DNA of 38,732 bases. It comes from Comamonadaceae bacterium (GTDB taxonomy: Bacteria > Pseudomonadota > Gammaproteobacteria > Burkholderiales > Burkholderiaceae_C). The position numbers and the translations under genes were made by a program. The DNA lies in NCBI GenBank assembly GCA_947446885.1, contig CANFHZ010000012.1, forward strand, positions 1-38,732, written 5' to 3'. The stretch's first letter is position 1. Each line of letters starts with the position of its first letter. Below, piece after piece: positions 16,359-21,596 of this stretch. The notes under the pieces were generated by a model. That model was not told the DNA's origin. It saw only the letters and a program-made list of their open reading frames with translations, and made no database searches.

Positions 16359-16997
16359 CTAAGCAGCACATCGCAGGGGCAGGCACCAAATCGCCAGTAA
16401 AGGCTTTGGCCCTGAGCGCATGGCGTGGCGGATGGCAGGGGGGTTGAACAGCATGCCCCCGGTTCCCGGTTCGAACCAGGGTGCGTCGCCTTGGCGGAAC
16501 TGGCCTGGCGAAAGCAAGAGGTAGCTCTCTTCGGGAGGATGGCTGTGGTCCGGGTATCGCACCAGTGGTGCCATCAGGCTCAGGCCAATCCATACATCGT
16601 CGCGCCGTTCCAGGCCGTTGGGGCCAAGCAGTACCGCGTTGGCGTGACCCTGGTCGAAGTTGGCACTGGCGTGGTTTTCACTCGGTCGGGTGACCCAGCG
16701 CAGAGCGGGTTCCAGGGCGTGCAGTGCATCGGCAAGAACCCGGAGTCCGCACGGTGCGGCACGCGCATGGTTCAGCGCCTCGTTCCAATACTGGCAGGCC
16801 GGTAGCCGCTGCCCCGGCGCGGTGTCGCACGCTGCACGCTCTGCCAGGGCGCGGAAGATGCGCACTGTGGACTTTTCGATGGCCGGGCCTGGTGCGCGGG
16901 CCTCTATGGCCTCGCGTAGCGCGTCCAGAACAGCCTGCAGCGCTGGCATGCGCGCCGACACGCCCGGCGAGGCGCATTGGTCATTACTGCTGCTCAC
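16359..16997 (-). CDS. cupin of the DMSP lyase (DddL/DddQ/DddK-like) family
   Basis: A 212-residue protein with an N-terminal helical part (about 1-95) and a cupin domain. The metal site reads YPDHSHPPEESYLLLSPG, giving H151, H153, E157 and Y159, with H191 in FNPPAIRHAMRSG. As I recall the DddK structure, its ligands are H56, H58, E62, Y64 and H96; every one is offset by exactly 95 here, so the site geometry is preserved. The family cleaves dimethylsulfoniopropionate to acrylate and dimethyl sulfide, but many members are untested. ATG 16997 overlaps the stop of the upstream flavoprotein gene (ATGA), so the two are translationally coupled. There is no signal peptide. Family placement is good; the substrate is not established. 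Confidence 0.8.
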   Translation of the reverse strand: MSSSNDQCASPGVSARMPALQAVLDALREAIEARAPGPAIEKSTVRIFRALAERAACDTAPGQRLPACQYWNEALNHARAAPCGLRVLADALHALEPALRWVTRPSENHASANFDQGHANAVLLGPNGLERRDDVWIGLSLMAPLVRYPDHSHPPEESYLLLSPGQFRQGDAPWFEPGTGGMLFNPPAIRHAMRSGPKPLLAIWCLPLRCAA

Positions 16998-19039
16998 AGC
17001 TCACGCGCCAGCCGCAAGCCATCGAGTACGGCGGCGTGCGTGTTGCGTGCCGACACCGCATCGCCGATGCGGAAAAGTTGGAATCGCCCTGCCGGATTGC
17101 TGCGCAATGCTTGCGGGGCCAGCGCGGTGAGCGCGGTGTAGTCGGTTTCGCCCAGGTTGCTCGAATGGGGCTTTAGCGCAAAGTACAGGTCTTCCAGCGG
17201 CAGCGTGCCGTGGTTGACGATGACCTGGTCCACCAGCCGCTCTTTGCGCACGCCGCCGTAGTCGCTGCCCACAATCGCCTTCAGCCCCATTTCTGAGCGC
17301 TCCACCGATAGCAGCCGGAAGGTCACGGTGAAGGTCACATCCAGCTTTTGCAGGCTGCGCATGTAAGGCACCAGATTCATGGCCATGACCTCGGGCGCGA
17401 AGCTGCGGTCCGGCGTCATGATCTCCAGCGCCGCGCCGCTTTGGGCAATGATTTCGGCGGCCTGCAGCGCAGCGTGGTCGCCCGCGTCGTCAAACAACAG
17501 CACGTTTTTGCCGGGCTTGACCTCGCCGCCCAGAATGTCCCAGGTGGAGGCCACCAGTTCGTTGCCGGTCTGCAGCACCTCGGTGTGCGGCAGGCCGCCG
17601 GTGGCGATGATGACCACATCCGGGTTTTCAGCCATCACCGAGGCTTCATCGGCCAGGGTGTTGAAGCGGAACACCACGCCGCGTTCTTCGCAGCGTGCCA
17701 TGCGCCAGTCGATGATGCCCATCATCTCGCGCCTACGTGGGCTCACGGCGGTCAGGCGGATTTGCCCGCCGGGTTTGGGTGCTGCTTCCAGTACGGTGAC
17801 CACATGCCCGCGCTCAGACGCCACACGCGCGGCCTCCAGCCCTGCCGGGCCTGCGCCGACGACCAGCACCCGGCGCTGAGCGGAGGCGGGCGCAATCGTG
17901 TGGGGCAGGGTGAGTTCGCGCCCGGTGGACGGGTTGTGGATGCAATAGGCCTCGCCACCGGCATAGATGCGGTCCAGGCAGAAGTTGCCACCCACGCAGG
18001 GGCGGATGGTGTCTTCGCGGCCTTCCACAATCTTGCGCATGATGTGCGGGTCCGCCATGTGGGCGCGGGTCATGCCCACCATGTCGAGCTTGCCGCTGGC
18101 AATCGCGTGGCGGGCGGTGTTGACGTCCTGGATTTTTGCGGCGTGGAAGATGGGCACGTTCACGTGCTCGCGCAGGCTGGCGGCAAAGTCCAGGTGCGGA
18201 GCGCTGCGCATGCCTTGCACCGGAATCACGTCCGTCAGGCCGGCGTCGGTGTCGATATGGCCACGGATGATGTTCAGAAAATCCACCATGCCCGAATCCG
18301 CCAAGTGGCGGGCAATGCCGATGCCCTCCAGGGCGGTAATGCCACCGGGGCGCACTTCGTCGGCCACGCCGCGCACGCCCAGAATGAATTCCGCTCCAAC
18401 CCGCTTGCGGATCGCACGCACCACCTCCATGGCAAAGCGCACCCGGTTTTCCAGCGCTCCGCCAAAGGGTGCGTCCAACGTGTTGGTCGACGGCGACCAG
18501 AACTGGTCTATCAAATGTCCATAGGCTTCCAGCTCCAATCCATCGACCCCGGCGGCGTGCATGCGCTCGGCGGCGTCGGCGTAGTCGCGGATGATGCGGT
18601 CGATGTCCCAGTCTTCCATCTTTTTGGGGAAGGCCCGGTGCGAGGCTTCGCGTTCGTGCGAGGGTGACACCACCGGCAGCCAATCGGCCTTGGACCAGCT
18701 GGTGCGCCGTCCCAGATGGGTGAGCTGGATCATCACGGCGGTGCCGTGCGCGTGGCAGGCGTCGGTGAGCTCGCGCATCCAGGGCACGACCTCGTCTTTG
18801 TAGGCCAGGATGTTGTTGAACACCGGCGGGCTGTCGCGCGATACCGCCGCGGATCCGGCGGTCATGGTCAGCGCAATGCCGGCCTTGGCGCGCTCCACAT
18901 GGTAGGCGCGGTACTTGGCTTTTGGCATGCCGTCCTCGGGGTAAGCCGGCTCGTGCGCCGTGATCATCAGCCGGTTTTTCAGGCGCAGGTGCTTGAGCTG
19001 AAAGGGCTGCAGCAAAGGGTCTGTGGAAGTGGTGCCCAT
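16994..19039 (-). CDS. FMN/FAD oxidoreductase of the trimethylamine dehydrogenase / DgcA type
   Basis: A 681-residue protein. Residues about 1-345 are an Old-Yellow-Enzyme TIM barrel (LQPFQLKHLRLKNRL; EAYGHLIDQFWSP; ENRVRFAMEVVRAI). An Fe-S segment with C348, C354 and C366 follows, then an FAD/NAD-binding part beginning RRVLVVGAGPAGLEAARVA (from residue 389). Relatives remove N-methyl groups from trimethylamine, dimethylglycine (DgcA) or N-methylproline, releasing formaldehyde. The canonical cluster is C-x2-C-x2-C-x11/12-C; here the second Cys is Gly351, a change I believe also occurs in the DgcA branch. No DgcB-like electron-transfer gene is adjacent. It starts 22 bp after the methyltransferase gene and overlaps the cupin gene by 4 bp. 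DgcA-like demethylase is the best guess. Confidence 0.8.
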   Translation of the reverse strand: MGTTSTDPLLQPFQLKHLRLKNRLMITAHEPAYPEDGMPKAKYRAYHVERAKAGIALTMTAGSAAVSRDSPPVFNNILAYKDEVVPWMRELTDACHAHGTAVMIQLTHLGRRTSWSKADWLPVVSPSHEREASHRAFPKKMEDWDIDRIIRDYADAAERMHAAGVDGLELEAYGHLIDQFWSPSTNTLDAPFGGALENRVRFAMEVVRAIRKRVGAEFILGVRGVADEVRPGGITALEGIGIARHLADSGMVDFLNIIRGHIDTDAGLTDVIPVQGMRSAPHLDFAASLREHVNVPIFHAAKIQDVNTARHAIASGKLDMVGMTRAHMADPHIMRKIVEGREDTIRPCVGGNFCLDRIYAGGEAYCIHNPSTGRELTLPHTIAPASAQRRVLVVGAGPAGLEAARVASERGHVVTVLEAAPKPGGQIRLTAVSPRRREMMGIIDWRMARCEERGVVFRFNTLADEASVMAENPDVVIIATGGLPHTEVLQTGNELVASTWDILGGEVKPGKNVLLFDDAGDHAALQAAEIIAQSGAALEIMTPDRSFAPEVMAMNLVPYMRSLQKLDVTFTVTFRLLSVERSEMGLKAIVGSDYGGVRKERLVDQVIVNHGTLPLEDLYFALKPHSSNLGETDYTALTALAPQALRSNPAGRFQLFRIGDAVSARNTHAAVLDGLRLAREL

Positions 19040-19061
19040 GATCGTCTTTCCGAGATTGCTG

Positions 19062-20642
19062 TCAGTACCACTGGTCCGGCATCGCGGCTTTGGTGCGGGC
19101 TACAAAGTCGCACAGTGCCTCGTTCACGCCTGCGTCGATGGCGGGGGCCTCGTACTCGGCCAGCGACTGTTTCCAGCGCGCGTTGGCGCGGGTGGCCGCA
19201 TCGGTCTTGCCGGATTCGTTCCAGCTCTCAAACGGCGTGTTGTCCGAGATGCTGGAATCAAAAAACGCGGTCGTGTAGTTGGCCATGGTGTGGGCGCTGC
19301 CCAGGTAATGGCCGCCGGGCGTGACCTCGCGAAAGGCATCCATCGCCAGCGTGTTGTCGTCCACCACCACACCGGCCAGGTAGCTGTGCAGCGCGCCGCA
19401 AAAGTCGGCGTCGAGCATGAACTTTTCGTAACTCATGGACAGCAGCCCGTCCAGGAAACCGGCAGAGTGCAGGATGAAATTGGCCCCGCAATGCACGGCC
19501 GAAAGCATGGACATCACGCTCTCCTCCATGGCCTGCGCATCGGGTAGCTTGCTGGTGGTGAAAGAGCCAGCGCAGCGCAGCGGCAGCTTGGCCCGTCGTG
19601 CGAGTTGCCCGACCACCATGGACCCGATAGCGGGCTCGGGCGTCCCGAAGGTGGGTGAGCCCGAGCGTAGCGACATGCTGGAGAGGAAGTTGCCGTAAAT
19701 CACCGGCGCACCCGGTCTCTCCAGCTGCGTGATCGCGCAGCCGAACAAGGTTTCGGCATGCGCCTGCGCAATCGCCCCGGCGTTGGTCACCGGGCCCATG
19801 GCGCCGCCCAGAATAAAGGGCACGATTATCGCCGCCTGGTTGGCACGGGCGTAGGCCCGGGCCGATTTGGTCATGGTGCCGTCCCACAGCAGCGGCGAGT
19901 TCACGTTGACGTTGCCCAGAATGACGCAGTGCTCGTCGACAAATTGTTCGCCAAACAGGATGCGGCTCATGGCGATCGAATCTTCAGCGCGCTGCTCGGA
20001 GGTGATCGAGCCCATATAGGCTTTGTCGGAATAGCGCATGTGGGAATACACCATATCCAGATGCCGCTTGTTCACCGGCACATCGGTAGGCTCGCACACC
20101 GTGCCGCCGCTGTGGTGCAGCCACGGGCTGTTGTAGGCCAGCTTGATGAAGTTCTGAAAATCCTCCAAGGTTCCGTAGCGCCGCCCTTTGTCCAGGTCCA
20201 TCACAAAGGGCGAGCCATAGGCCGGCGAGAACACCACCGATGTGCCGCCTATCAATACGTTGTGGGCGGGGTTGCGTGCGTGCTGCACAAAGCTGCTGGG
20301 AGCGGTTTTCAGAATCTCGTGCACTTGGCCCGGCTGCAGCCGCACCCGCATGCCGTCCACGCGGGCTCCGGATTTGCGGAACAGGTCCAGCGCCGCATCG
20401 TCGTCGCGCACGTCGATGCCGATTTCGCACAGGATGCGCTCGGCGGTAGCCTCGATTTTTTGCAGATTCTCTTCGCCCATCACGTCATAGGTCGGGATGG
20501 CGCGGGTGATGTAAGCCGGGCCGTAGACCCGGGCTTTGGGGTCGCGCCGCTCGCGTCCGCCGCTGCGGCGGTTGGCGCGGGCCGGTGGCTCGGTGGAAGG
20601 CGCGTGAGGCGCAGGCAGGGTGGTGCTGTCGATGTCGCTCAT
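19062..20642 (-). CDS. MttB-superfamily (trimethylamine methyltransferase-like) protein, non-pyrrolysine
   Basis: A 526-residue protein with the MttB TIM-barrel pattern: EENLQKIEATAERILCEIGI near the start, NPAHNVLIGGTSVVFSPAYG, LGNVNVNSPLLWDGTM, GAMGPVTNAGAIAQAHAETL and YGNFLSSMSLRSGSPTFGTP. True MttB uses pyrrolysine at an in-frame amber codon. This frame has no internal TAG, so it belongs with homologues such as the glycine betaine or proline betaine:corrinoid methyltransferases. No corrinoid protein or corrinoid-activating gene lies nearby. The start is ATG 20642, with GGAG closely upstream. The first 40 residues are Pro/Arg-rich and not conserved. It is first in a three-gene operon. The substrate is unknown; a quaternary amine is the likely class. 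Confidence 0.8.
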   Translation of the reverse strand: MSDIDSTTLPAPHAPSTEPPARANRRSGGRERRDPKARVYGPAYITRAIPTYDVMGEENLQKIEATAERILCEIGIDVRDDDAALDLFRKSGARVDGMRVRLQPGQVHEILKTAPSSFVQHARNPAHNVLIGGTSVVFSPAYGSPFVMDLDKGRRYGTLEDFQNFIKLAYNSPWLHHSGGTVCEPTDVPVNKRHLDMVYSHMRYSDKAYMGSITSEQRAEDSIAMSRILFGEQFVDEHCVILGNVNVNSPLLWDGTMTKSARAYARANQAAIIVPFILGGAMGPVTNAGAIAQAHAETLFGCAITQLERPGAPVIYGNFLSSMSLRSGSPTFGTPEPAIGSMVVGQLARRAKLPLRCAGSFTTSKLPDAQAMEESVMSMLSAVHCGANFILHSAGFLDGLLSMSYEKFMLDADFCGALHSYLAGVVVDDNTLAMDAFREVTPGGHYLGSAHTMANYTTAFFDSSISDNTPFESWNESGKTDAATRANARWKQSLAEYEAPAIDAGVNEALCDFVARTKAAMPDQWY

Positions 20643-20809
20643 GGGGTCTCCTGGCCTTTCCGTAGGACGAAGTCGTTTCTGACGGGATGGTACACAGACG
20701 TGGCGCACACAAGGGCTAACGACCCTGCAGACGGGTGGTTCATGCGGTGCCGATGCGGGCTAGCGCCGGGTGGGCTACACATGGAGAATTTTCGCAATAA
20801 GAGAAACAT
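20643..20809. promoter_or_regulatory. divergent intergenic region, methyltransferase operon / fnr
   Basis: About 200 bp separate the minus-strand methyltransferase start from fnr. It must hold both promoters. I see no convincing -35/-10 pair for either side. The only recognisable element is the imperfect FNR-like palindrome at 20810-20823. Confidence 0.4.
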
Positions 20810-20823
20810 TTGACCTGCCGCAA
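20810..20823 (+). promoter_or_regulatory. imperfect FNR box upstream of fnr
   Basis: TTGAC-CTGC-CGCAA resembles the FNR consensus TTGAT-N4-ATCAA: four of five positions match in the left half and three of five in the right. It lies 23 bp before the preferred fnr start, which would suit autorepression rather than activation. It is much weaker than the two perfect boxes at 24428 and 32927. Confidence 0.35.
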
Positions 20824-20846
20824 TGCATTTGTGTTTCAATGCACCC

Positions 20847-21596
20847 ATGAAAGCCGATGTTCTGAAAGTTGCCTGCTCCAATTGCAATTTACGTGAGTTA
20901 TGTATGCCCATCGGCCTGGATGCGGCAGAAAGCTTGCAGGTGGATAACCTAGTCGAGGGGCGGCGCAAGATTGCCAAAGGCCAAACTCTTTTTCGCAATG
21001 GAAGCCCGTTTGAGAACCTTTTTGCCATCCGCTCGGGTGTGTTCAAAACCATCATCCTGCACGAAGACGGACGTGAGCAAGTCACCGGTTTTCAGATGTC
21101 GGGCGAGATCATCGGCTTGGACGGCATCGTCGAAGACAAGCATCGCTGCGACTCTGTGGCGCTGGAAGATGCCGAGGTCTGCGTAATCCCTTTTGACAGC
21201 GTGGAACACATGTCGCGCGAAATCCCCGCAGTTCAGCACCATGTGCACCGCATCATGAGCCGTGAGATCGTGCGTGAAAACTCGGTCATGCTGCTGCTGG
21301 GTAACGCCCAAGCCGAAGAGCGTCTCGCGGCCTTTCTGGTGAATTGGGGCCAGCGTTTGCAGGCGCGCGGTTTCTCCGCCACCGAGCTCGTCCTGCGCAT
21401 GACCCGGCAGGATCTGGGTAACTACCTGGGCCTCAAGATCGAGACCGTCAGCCGCACCCTGACCAAGCTGGCCGGGCGGGGTATTTTGTCGGTTGCCGGC
21501 CGCGAAATCCACATACTGGACATGGCCGCTCTACGCGCCGTAGCCAGCGGCGAAGACCTCGGCGAGCCAGTGCCGCAGCGTCCGCGACCGGCTTGA
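20847..21596 (+). CDS. fnr: FNR-type oxygen-sensing transcriptional regulator
   Basis: A 249-residue Crp/Fnr-family activator carrying the four cysteines of an oxygen-labile 4Fe-4S cluster: C10, C13 and C19 (CSNCNLRELC) and C101 (KHRCDS), equivalent to C20, C23, C29 and C122 of E. coli FNR. The cyclic-nucleotide-like sensor barrel includes KGQTLFRNGSPFENLFAIRSG. The C-terminal helix-turn-helix has MTRQDLGNYLGLKIETVSRT, with the E-SR recognition residues of true FNR proteins. ATG 20847 (MKADVLKVACSNC) is preferred over ATG 20823, which would start inside the FNR-like palindrome. Perfect boxes upstream of ccoN and the Pat-like gene mark probable targets in this window. Confidence 0.93.
   Translation: MKADVLKVACSNCNLRELCMPIGLDAAESLQVDNLVEGRRKIAKGQTLFRNGSPFENLFAIRSGVFKTIILHEDGREQVTGFQMSGEIIGLDGIVEDKHRCDSVALEDAEVCVIPFDSVEHMSREIPAVQHHVHRIMSREIVRENSVMLLLGNAQAEERLAAFLVNWGQRLQARGFSATELVLRMTRQDLGNYLGLKIETVSRTLTKLAGRGILSVAGREIHILDMAALRAVASGEDLGEPVPQRPRPA

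Follow-up and report, generated by a model that had tools for sequence, protein, structure and literature searches.

Which compound is taken apart by an operon that joins an MttB-like methyltransferase, a flavoprotein demethylase and a cupin resembling dimethylsulfoniopropionate (DMSP) lyases? The question is raised by positions 16359 to 20642 of contig CANFHZ010000012.1 (C12) of a Comamonadaceae bacterium, whose 38,732 nucleotides were analysed as a whole and are called here the window; it belongs to a draft genome (GCA_947446885.1) of 2.61 Mb, 92% complete. The sequence comparisons suggest that a cyclic amino-acid betaine probably loses its two N-methyl groups through this operon; proline betaine (stachydrine), 4-hydroxyproline betaine or both are the most likely substrates. 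A preliminary description of the DNA had placed three genes here, with a 22-bp gap followed by a 4-bp overlap, and had named the methyltransferase and cupin families. The coordinates matched, and both families were recovered above the Pfam cut-offs (PF06253, 746 bits; PF16867, 182 bits), as was PF00724 in the flavoprotein (174 bits). The features of the operon are the following:

19062..20642, minus strand: mttB-like gene (P0003), 526 aa, ATG start; candidate quaternary-amine:corrinoid methyltransferase of the MttB superfamily (non-pyrrolysine), StcD-linked clade
19040..19061, minus strand: 22-bp spacer between the mttB-like and flavoprotein genes, holding a purine-rich stretch that may be the ribosome-binding site of the flavoprotein gene, read from the sequence
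16994..19039, minus strand: flavoprotein gene (P0002), 681 aa, ATG start; predicted N-methylproline demethylase of the StcD/HpbA type (OYE/TMADH superfamily, that is, Old Yellow Enzyme/trimethylamine dehydrogenase)
16994..16997, minus strand: 4-bp overlap (GTGA) of the flavoprotein stop and the cupin start, identical in the relative L039 described below
16359..16997, minus strand: cupin gene (P0001), 212 aa, GTG start; DMSP-lyase-like, PF16867

Translational coupling of the flavoprotein and cupin genes through the GTGA overlap is likely.

The Flavoprotein

By Pfam, P0002 is formed by a PF00724 domain and a pyridine-nucleotide oxidoreductase part, and matches to solved structures placed it in the OYE/TMADH superfamily. 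It was 71-72% identical to the members found in Sinorhizobium meliloti, Rhizobium and Paracoccus (L031, L034, L120), with 71% for the S. meliloti gene on pSymB and 72% for the Paracoccus aminophilus gene annotated as "N-methyl-L-proline N-demethylase HpbA," versus 41-47% to DgcA-like proteins. Identity was 43% to a Mesorhizobium relative whose gene shares a plasmid stretch with a Rieske gene. In a tree of 67 rows, a branch of 47 rows (those labelled at least 55% identical or named StcD/HpbA) had a Shimodaira-Hasegawa-like approximate likelihood ratio (SH-aLRT) support of 100 and included the window protein, the pSymB gene and HpbA. The flavoprotein of G421 (54-55%) was its sister, and two proteins adjoining DgcB-like genes (DUF3483 + CCG; one also with electron-transfer flavoprotein, ETF) fell outside; the DgcA identity of these two rests on the DgcB-like neighbour. 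By identity and phylogeny the flavoprotein is thus a member of the StcD/HpbA clade, and the DgcA label of the preliminary description was rejected. Being of this type, it indicates proline or hydroxyproline betaine as the substrate.

The stc/hpb names used here are those of the (hydroxy)proline betaine catabolism of rhizobia and Paracoccus (Rieske demethylase, StcD/HpbA, HpbD). The stcD gene of S. meliloti, coding for N-methylproline demethylase, is located on pSymB (PMC12239276). Two S. meliloti records, CP140937 and CP019487, held one matching place each and CP130046 held five, and we infer that the matching pSymB gene is stcD.

We also compared the cysteines with the four-Cys 4Fe-4S ligand pattern of trimethylamine dehydrogenase. 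The result was negative: in the motif CVGGNFC...C the second Cys is Gly here, and Gly or Ala in all the StcD rows printed. More generally, flavoproteins of the StcD/DgcA family do not have the second TMADH-type Fe-S cysteine (CxG[GA]xxC), and the OYE2 paralogue of L041 retains CxxC. A second OYE-type flavoprotein, about 30% identical to StcD, was seen repeatedly near StcD or ProV genes (L308 12525-14501, L309 5693-7669, L310 5114-7090, and L041 1765-3756).

The MttB Homologue and Its StcD-Linked Clade

P0003 (METHYLTRANSFERASE) is a non-pyrrolysine MttB homologue. The PF06253 match is full-length (positions 4-500 of 500), and the test for the pyrrolysine-type (trimethylamine) MttB was negative, with TIGR02369 at 265 bits against a cut-off of 525 and no internal stop. 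In a tree of 55 sequences it fell in a clade of 11 (SH-aLRT 100; several rows are near-copies), and for 10 of these 11 a StcD-type gene is no more than 10 kb away. Nine were labelled as linked, among them G460, whose label was taken from L054 (StcD 4.6 kb away, opposite strand); G455, with a StcD-type gene (60%) about 30 bp from MttB, was added afterwards. The eleventh adjoins an HpbD-type epimerase and HypO- and aldehyde-dehydrogenase (ALDH)-like genes. The 37 StcD genomes gave 75 MttB matches, scoring being confined to the few top candidates of each genome; 8 of the 9 that were at least 60% identical to P0003 were within 10 kb of StcD, versus 1 of the 66 below 60%; the ninth is a contig-edge fragment. 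Within the class, again with the few top candidates of each genome scored, StcD (at least 55%) was detected in 13 of 369 genomes, and MttB in 12 of these 13 versus 9 of the other 356. The exception, G424, has StcD without MttB and Rieske-like open reading frames (ORFs) beside StcD.

The arrangements around these pairs are varied. L306 has the order MttB-LysR-ProV-ProW-OpuAC-StcD-P5CR (P5CR, pyrroline-5-carboxylate reductase), and ProV, ProW and OpuAC stand between MttB and StcD in G451. Three Roseovarius-group genomes have the two genes at most about 15 bp apart and the cupin elsewhere. On a 12-kb stretch of G463, a clade MttB has in its vicinity a second MttB, after which comes an HpbD orthologue (L313; 4e8g at 652 bits and 2pmq at 516 bits among PDB matches), with HypO- and ALDH-like genes beyond; we take 4e8g, 4izg, 4j1o, 2pmq and 4h2h to be HpbD structures. 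G415 shows MttB-MR_MLE-StcD. The best PDB matches of this MR_MLE gene (L157 11637-12818) are 2oqh ("putative isomerase") and 4dye ("isomerase"); as neither 2pmq nor 4e8g appeared in the best 60 of 164 PDB hits, HpbD was rejected as its identity. Related MR_MLE genes are found directly after a DgcA-like flavoprotein in G449 (L195 380-3559) and beside StcD in G720 (L297 3674-4855).

A relation with the Rieske demethylases was also considered. An oxygenase at least 68% identical to that of L116, whose best PDB matches are 4qup and 3vca (presumably stachydrine demethylases), was present in 14 of the 80 cupin loci described below. Rieske matches (E ≤ 1e-60) were obtained in 6 of 14 genomes with StcD-linked or at least 60% identical MttB (a set that includes G134, G461 and the G016 fragment) versus 16 of 35 others, and some genomes hold genes of both kinds. 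MttB as a simple replacement of the Stc2-type Rieske enzyme was therefore rejected as a rule: Rieske genes do not avoid the genomes of the MttB clade.

The methyltransferase family leaves room for a different N-methylated substrate, such as pipecolate betaine, carnitine or γ-butyrobetaine, choline-type compounds or aromatic betaines. Up to seven PF06253 genes occur in marine genomes with mtgC/mtgD, their substrates being open (PMC12478193), and the Eubacterium limosum paralogues differ in specificity (PMC8604678). We nevertheless consider such a substrate unlikely, considering the StcD/HpbA partner and the HpbD, HypO-like and Stc2-like Rieske genes of relatives, all of which point to the (hydroxy)proline betaine route.

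Corrinoid Partners and Other MttBs of the Genome

The preliminary description had seen no corrinoid protein, DgcB or transporter gene adjoining the operon and expected the partners elsewhere, and both points stood. None of these genes adjoins the operon, whose flanks are given in the last section, and the genome carries a corrinoid protein gene on C82 and, on C133, a cluster that codes for DUF1638 and MTHFR proteins, a pterin-binding protein and a RACo-type activase; a weak second B12-binding_2 match is on C88. This partner set resembles the MtgC/DUF1638/MetF2/MtgD/RamA set of Ruegeria pomeroyi (PMC12478193). With the partners in the genome, the stepwise dismantling of a quaternary-ammonium osmolyte proposed earlier gained support. 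C82 and C133 (L149 9228-10952; L150 1-1318) carry apparently the same corrinoid/DUF1638/small-gene stretch, with the small gene nearly identical, which looks like a paralogue or a strain mixture in the metagenome-assembled genome (MAG).

Three MttBs were found in this genome: P0003, a copy on C29 and a fragment on C60. The C29 copy is near serine dehydratase and sarcosine-oxidase-like (SoxBA-like) genes and belongs to another part of the MttB tree. The C60 fragment, at a contig edge, has a branch too long for placing and is followed by genes like dimethylglycine dehydrogenase (DMGDH) and sarcosine oxidase (SoxBA-like).

These copies bear on a glycine betaine route, in which MttB would make dimethylglycine and a DgcA-type enzyme would make sarcosine. 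MttB homologues act on glycine betaine in aerobic bacteria (MtgBCD, PMC12478193), and the flavoprotein and DgcA share one superfamily. Still, the identities and the separate branches described above speak against it, and the two other MttBs already sit with dimethylglycine or sarcosine oxidation genes, so we regard this route as quite improbable.

The Cupin

P0001 has weak matches to solved DMSP lyases besides its PF16867 score. The AlphaFold2 model had a mean confidence (pLDDT) of 92.8, and its best Foldseek matches were DddQ structures at 20-25% identity. H151, H153, E157, Y159, H191 and W204 were invariant across 35 cupin sequences. The spacing of the first five is exactly that of His56, His58, Glu62, Tyr64 and His96 of DddK (HxHxxxExY...H), in which Tyr64 abstracts the Cα proton (PMC10686828). 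DddK also has an aromatic onium pocket, and W204 is the only invariant candidate for one here. The cupin is rare in the genus sample: counting the genome of the window, 2 of 37 genomes had a match above the PF16867 cut-off.

The genomic company of the cupin was analysed in the best 80 of 290 relatives. It is directly downstream of StcD in 50 loci, StcD is elsewhere in the locus in 5, and 25 loci have none. In 22 of these 25 genomes StcD (at least 60%) lies outside the locus, so cupin and StcD share the genome in 77 of 80; as background, StcD was present in 9 of 288 genomes of the class drawn around G459, the centre left out and the few top candidates of each genome scored. Of the 50 loci with adjacent pairs, at least 48 hold TetR, 45 a P5CR-like gene, 44 ProX, 24 etfB, 11 frmA and 10 gfa, all lower bounds since many loci end early. 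The rhizobial loci carry frmA/fghA/gfa and etfBA. On the cupin tree, which has several long branches, the adjacency label has to change 6 times, with no fewer than 3 of these changes forced by starred branches, so that the pairing with StcD probably arose or disappeared on more than one occasion.

The sulfonium route or lyase step suggested in the preliminary description was not supported, in view of this association with StcD; in addition, as a matter of chemistry, proline betaine has its onium nitrogen on Cα and would offer no leaving group for a DMSP-type β-elimination. Catabolism of DMSP by the operon, with the cupin as a true lyase, deserves very little credence: the family score, the DddQ fold and the catalytic residues of DddK (residues from PMC10686828) favour it, but the low identity to the solved DddQ enzymes and the sharing of the genome with StcD make a lyase unlikely, and a Rhizobium host, perhaps of another strain and not necessarily expressing a cupin of this kind, is described as one "which cannot catabolize DMSOP" (dimethylsulfoxonium propionate, a compound other than DMSP; PMC10686828); R. 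johnstonii 3841 carries a StcD-linked cupin (L088). No DMSP-pathway genes were recognised in the annotated loci, though no search was aimed at them.

Two side observations concern the neighbours of these cupins. In Rhizobium loci (L033, L034, L036, L088 and others) a second gene annotated "dimethylsulfonioproprionate lyase family" follows etfA; in the two examples L034 and L036 it does not have the HxHxxxExY motif, and for this reason it was not used for the mechanism. In some Roseovarius-group loci (L044, L058, L060, L074) the cupin is near portal, capsid or terminase genes, which are perhaps a gene-transfer-agent cluster and give no clue to the pathway.

Proposed Pathway

For the removal of both methyl groups from proline betaine or its 4-hydroxy form, we propose that the MttB paralogue would first hand one methyl to an MtgC-type corrinoid protein, probably common to the other MttBs of the genome. 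An MtgD-type enzyme would transfer it to tetrahydrofolate (THF), with a RACo/RamA-type protein keeping the corrinoid active, and N-methyl(hydroxy)proline would be left. The flavoprotein, judging from its clade, would then oxidise the second methyl to formaldehyde and yield (hydroxy)proline, with electrons probably passing to ETF; the frmA/fghA/gfa and etfBA genes of the rhizobial loci fit this StcD demethylation. The corrinoid step would save the methyl as methyl-THF and need no oxygen, unlike the Rieske step. An outline of the route for hydroxyproline betaine is given in PMC4113996.

Considering that proline betaine has no β-onium group and that the elimination is thus impossible, a proton transfer at Cα is proposed for the cupin. 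A related onium compound would be held through its carboxylate at the metal, with Tyr159 taking the Cα proton, and the cupin most likely would handle a stereoisomer or a hydroxylated form. A tentative possibility is that it is a betaine 2-epimerase (racemase), in which the reused lyase machinery would give a proton back to the Cα carbanion and no elimination would follow. Such a cupin would parallel the enolase-superfamily epimerases without being related to them; MR_MLE genes adjoin StcD in G415 and G720, and an HpbD orthologue is near MttB in G463. In a variant, the cupin would dehydrate 3-hydroxyproline betaine and the linked P5CR-like enzyme would then reduce the product.

Several points weigh against this assignment as a whole. 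Its substrate rests on a StcD/HpbA annotation that was probably transferred by similarity, and the specificity of an MttB cannot be read from its family. In alphaproteobacteria, the flavoproteins with identities of 42-55% make up a continuum, most of which was left out of the tree. The Fisher tests on the MttB-StcD and cupin-StcD counts ignore kinship among genomes, and their p-values are therefore too small. Nearness to StcD is not confined to the MttB clade: the G134 MttB, outside it, is about 20 bp from StcD without a cupin, and G459 (L117), outside the 37-genome count, has a 44% MttB 6 kb from StcD. Most MttBs of the 12 class genomes also lie outside the linked clade, so the co-occurrence may mirror a general betaine diet. 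The Rieske similarity in G424 is split over two overlapping ORFs, with no match at 1e-60. No StcD is present on the 12-kb stretch of G463, which holds both HpbD and the cupin (L066) and so counts against the epimerase as well. Among the 25 genomes whose cupin locus holds no StcD, three have no StcD (at least 60%) anywhere. For the triplet order, the window and L039 are the only known cases apart from the fragments in G016, and the window operon has no adjoining transporter.

Comparison with Known Systems

Each part of the operon comes from a known family, and the arrangement would be a variant of betaine demethylation. With the stc/hpb systems of rhizobia and Paracoccus it shares the second demethylation by StcD/HpbA and, in relatives, the TetR, P5CR-like and ProU context; it differs in the corrinoid MttB proposed to take the place of a Rieske enzyme, or to act alongside it, in the first demethylation, in the cupin within the operon and in the lack of an adjoining transporter. 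As in the MtpB-MtqC-MtqA-RamQ system of E. limosum, which demethylates proline betaine anaerobically (PMC8604678), an MttB superfamily member would work with a corrinoid protein common to several paralogues (MtpB and P0003 being compared by description, not by sequence), but here the host is a proteobacterium with the MtgC/MtgD/MetF2 set, and StcD would remove a further methyl from the product. MtgBCD of R. pomeroyi, acting on glycine betaine (PMC12478193), is alike in its standalone corrinoid protein, pterin-binding enzyme, DUF1638, MetF2-like and RACo-type genes, whereas the window MttB belongs to a separate clade and is joined to StcD rather than to DMGDH/sarcosine oxidase genes. The cupin DMSP lyases (DddQ, DddK and kin) share the fold and the metal/base site with DddK spacing, and the window cupin, distant from DddQ, adjoins an N-demethylase gene.

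Among the papers listed by our literature search we saw neither an operon of MttB and StcD nor a DMSP-lyase-like cupin linked to StcD, which is not proof that no such report exists. Lei et al. 2018 reportedly call some DMSP-lyase-like cupins "enzymes with unknown function" in their title, and the close company of StcD is a strong lead to the function of this subfamily. Not every PF16867 gene in metagenomes should be counted as a DMSP lyase. Many proteobacterial MttB genes have no known substrate, a matter raised as open in PMC12478193, and one clade now receives a testable substrate class.

Conservation of the Order and Flanking Genes

The nearest relative with the full three-gene order is L039, of a MAG named "Comamonas sp. 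lk," whose three proteins are 95, 96 and 87% identical to those of the window; given this recurrence, the order is not an assembly accident. G016, which its coordinates indicate to be identical with the genome G454/L040, has the cupin and flavoprotein genes paired at one contig end and an MttB fragment (92%) at another. The expectation that the three genes would be neighbours in relatives was borne out for the MttB-StcD and StcD-cupin pairs, which recur widely, and not for the full triplet, which was seen in the window lineage only.

Downstream of the operon there are a tRNA-Lys and a ThiF-family gene (the closest NCBIfam model is TcdA, under its cut-off). The upstream neighbour is divergent:

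20823..21596, plus strand: fnr gene (NF008365, 243 bits against a cut-off of 228)

No FNR-box-like site was found in 20643-20822 with up to 2 mismatches allowed; control of the operon by FNR was accordingly rejected, and fnr is probably a neighbour outside the pathway. In the window mttB is directly divergent from fnr, without the two genes that L039 has between them, namely a divergent LysR gene adjoining mttB and a multicopper-oxidase/cytochrome gene.

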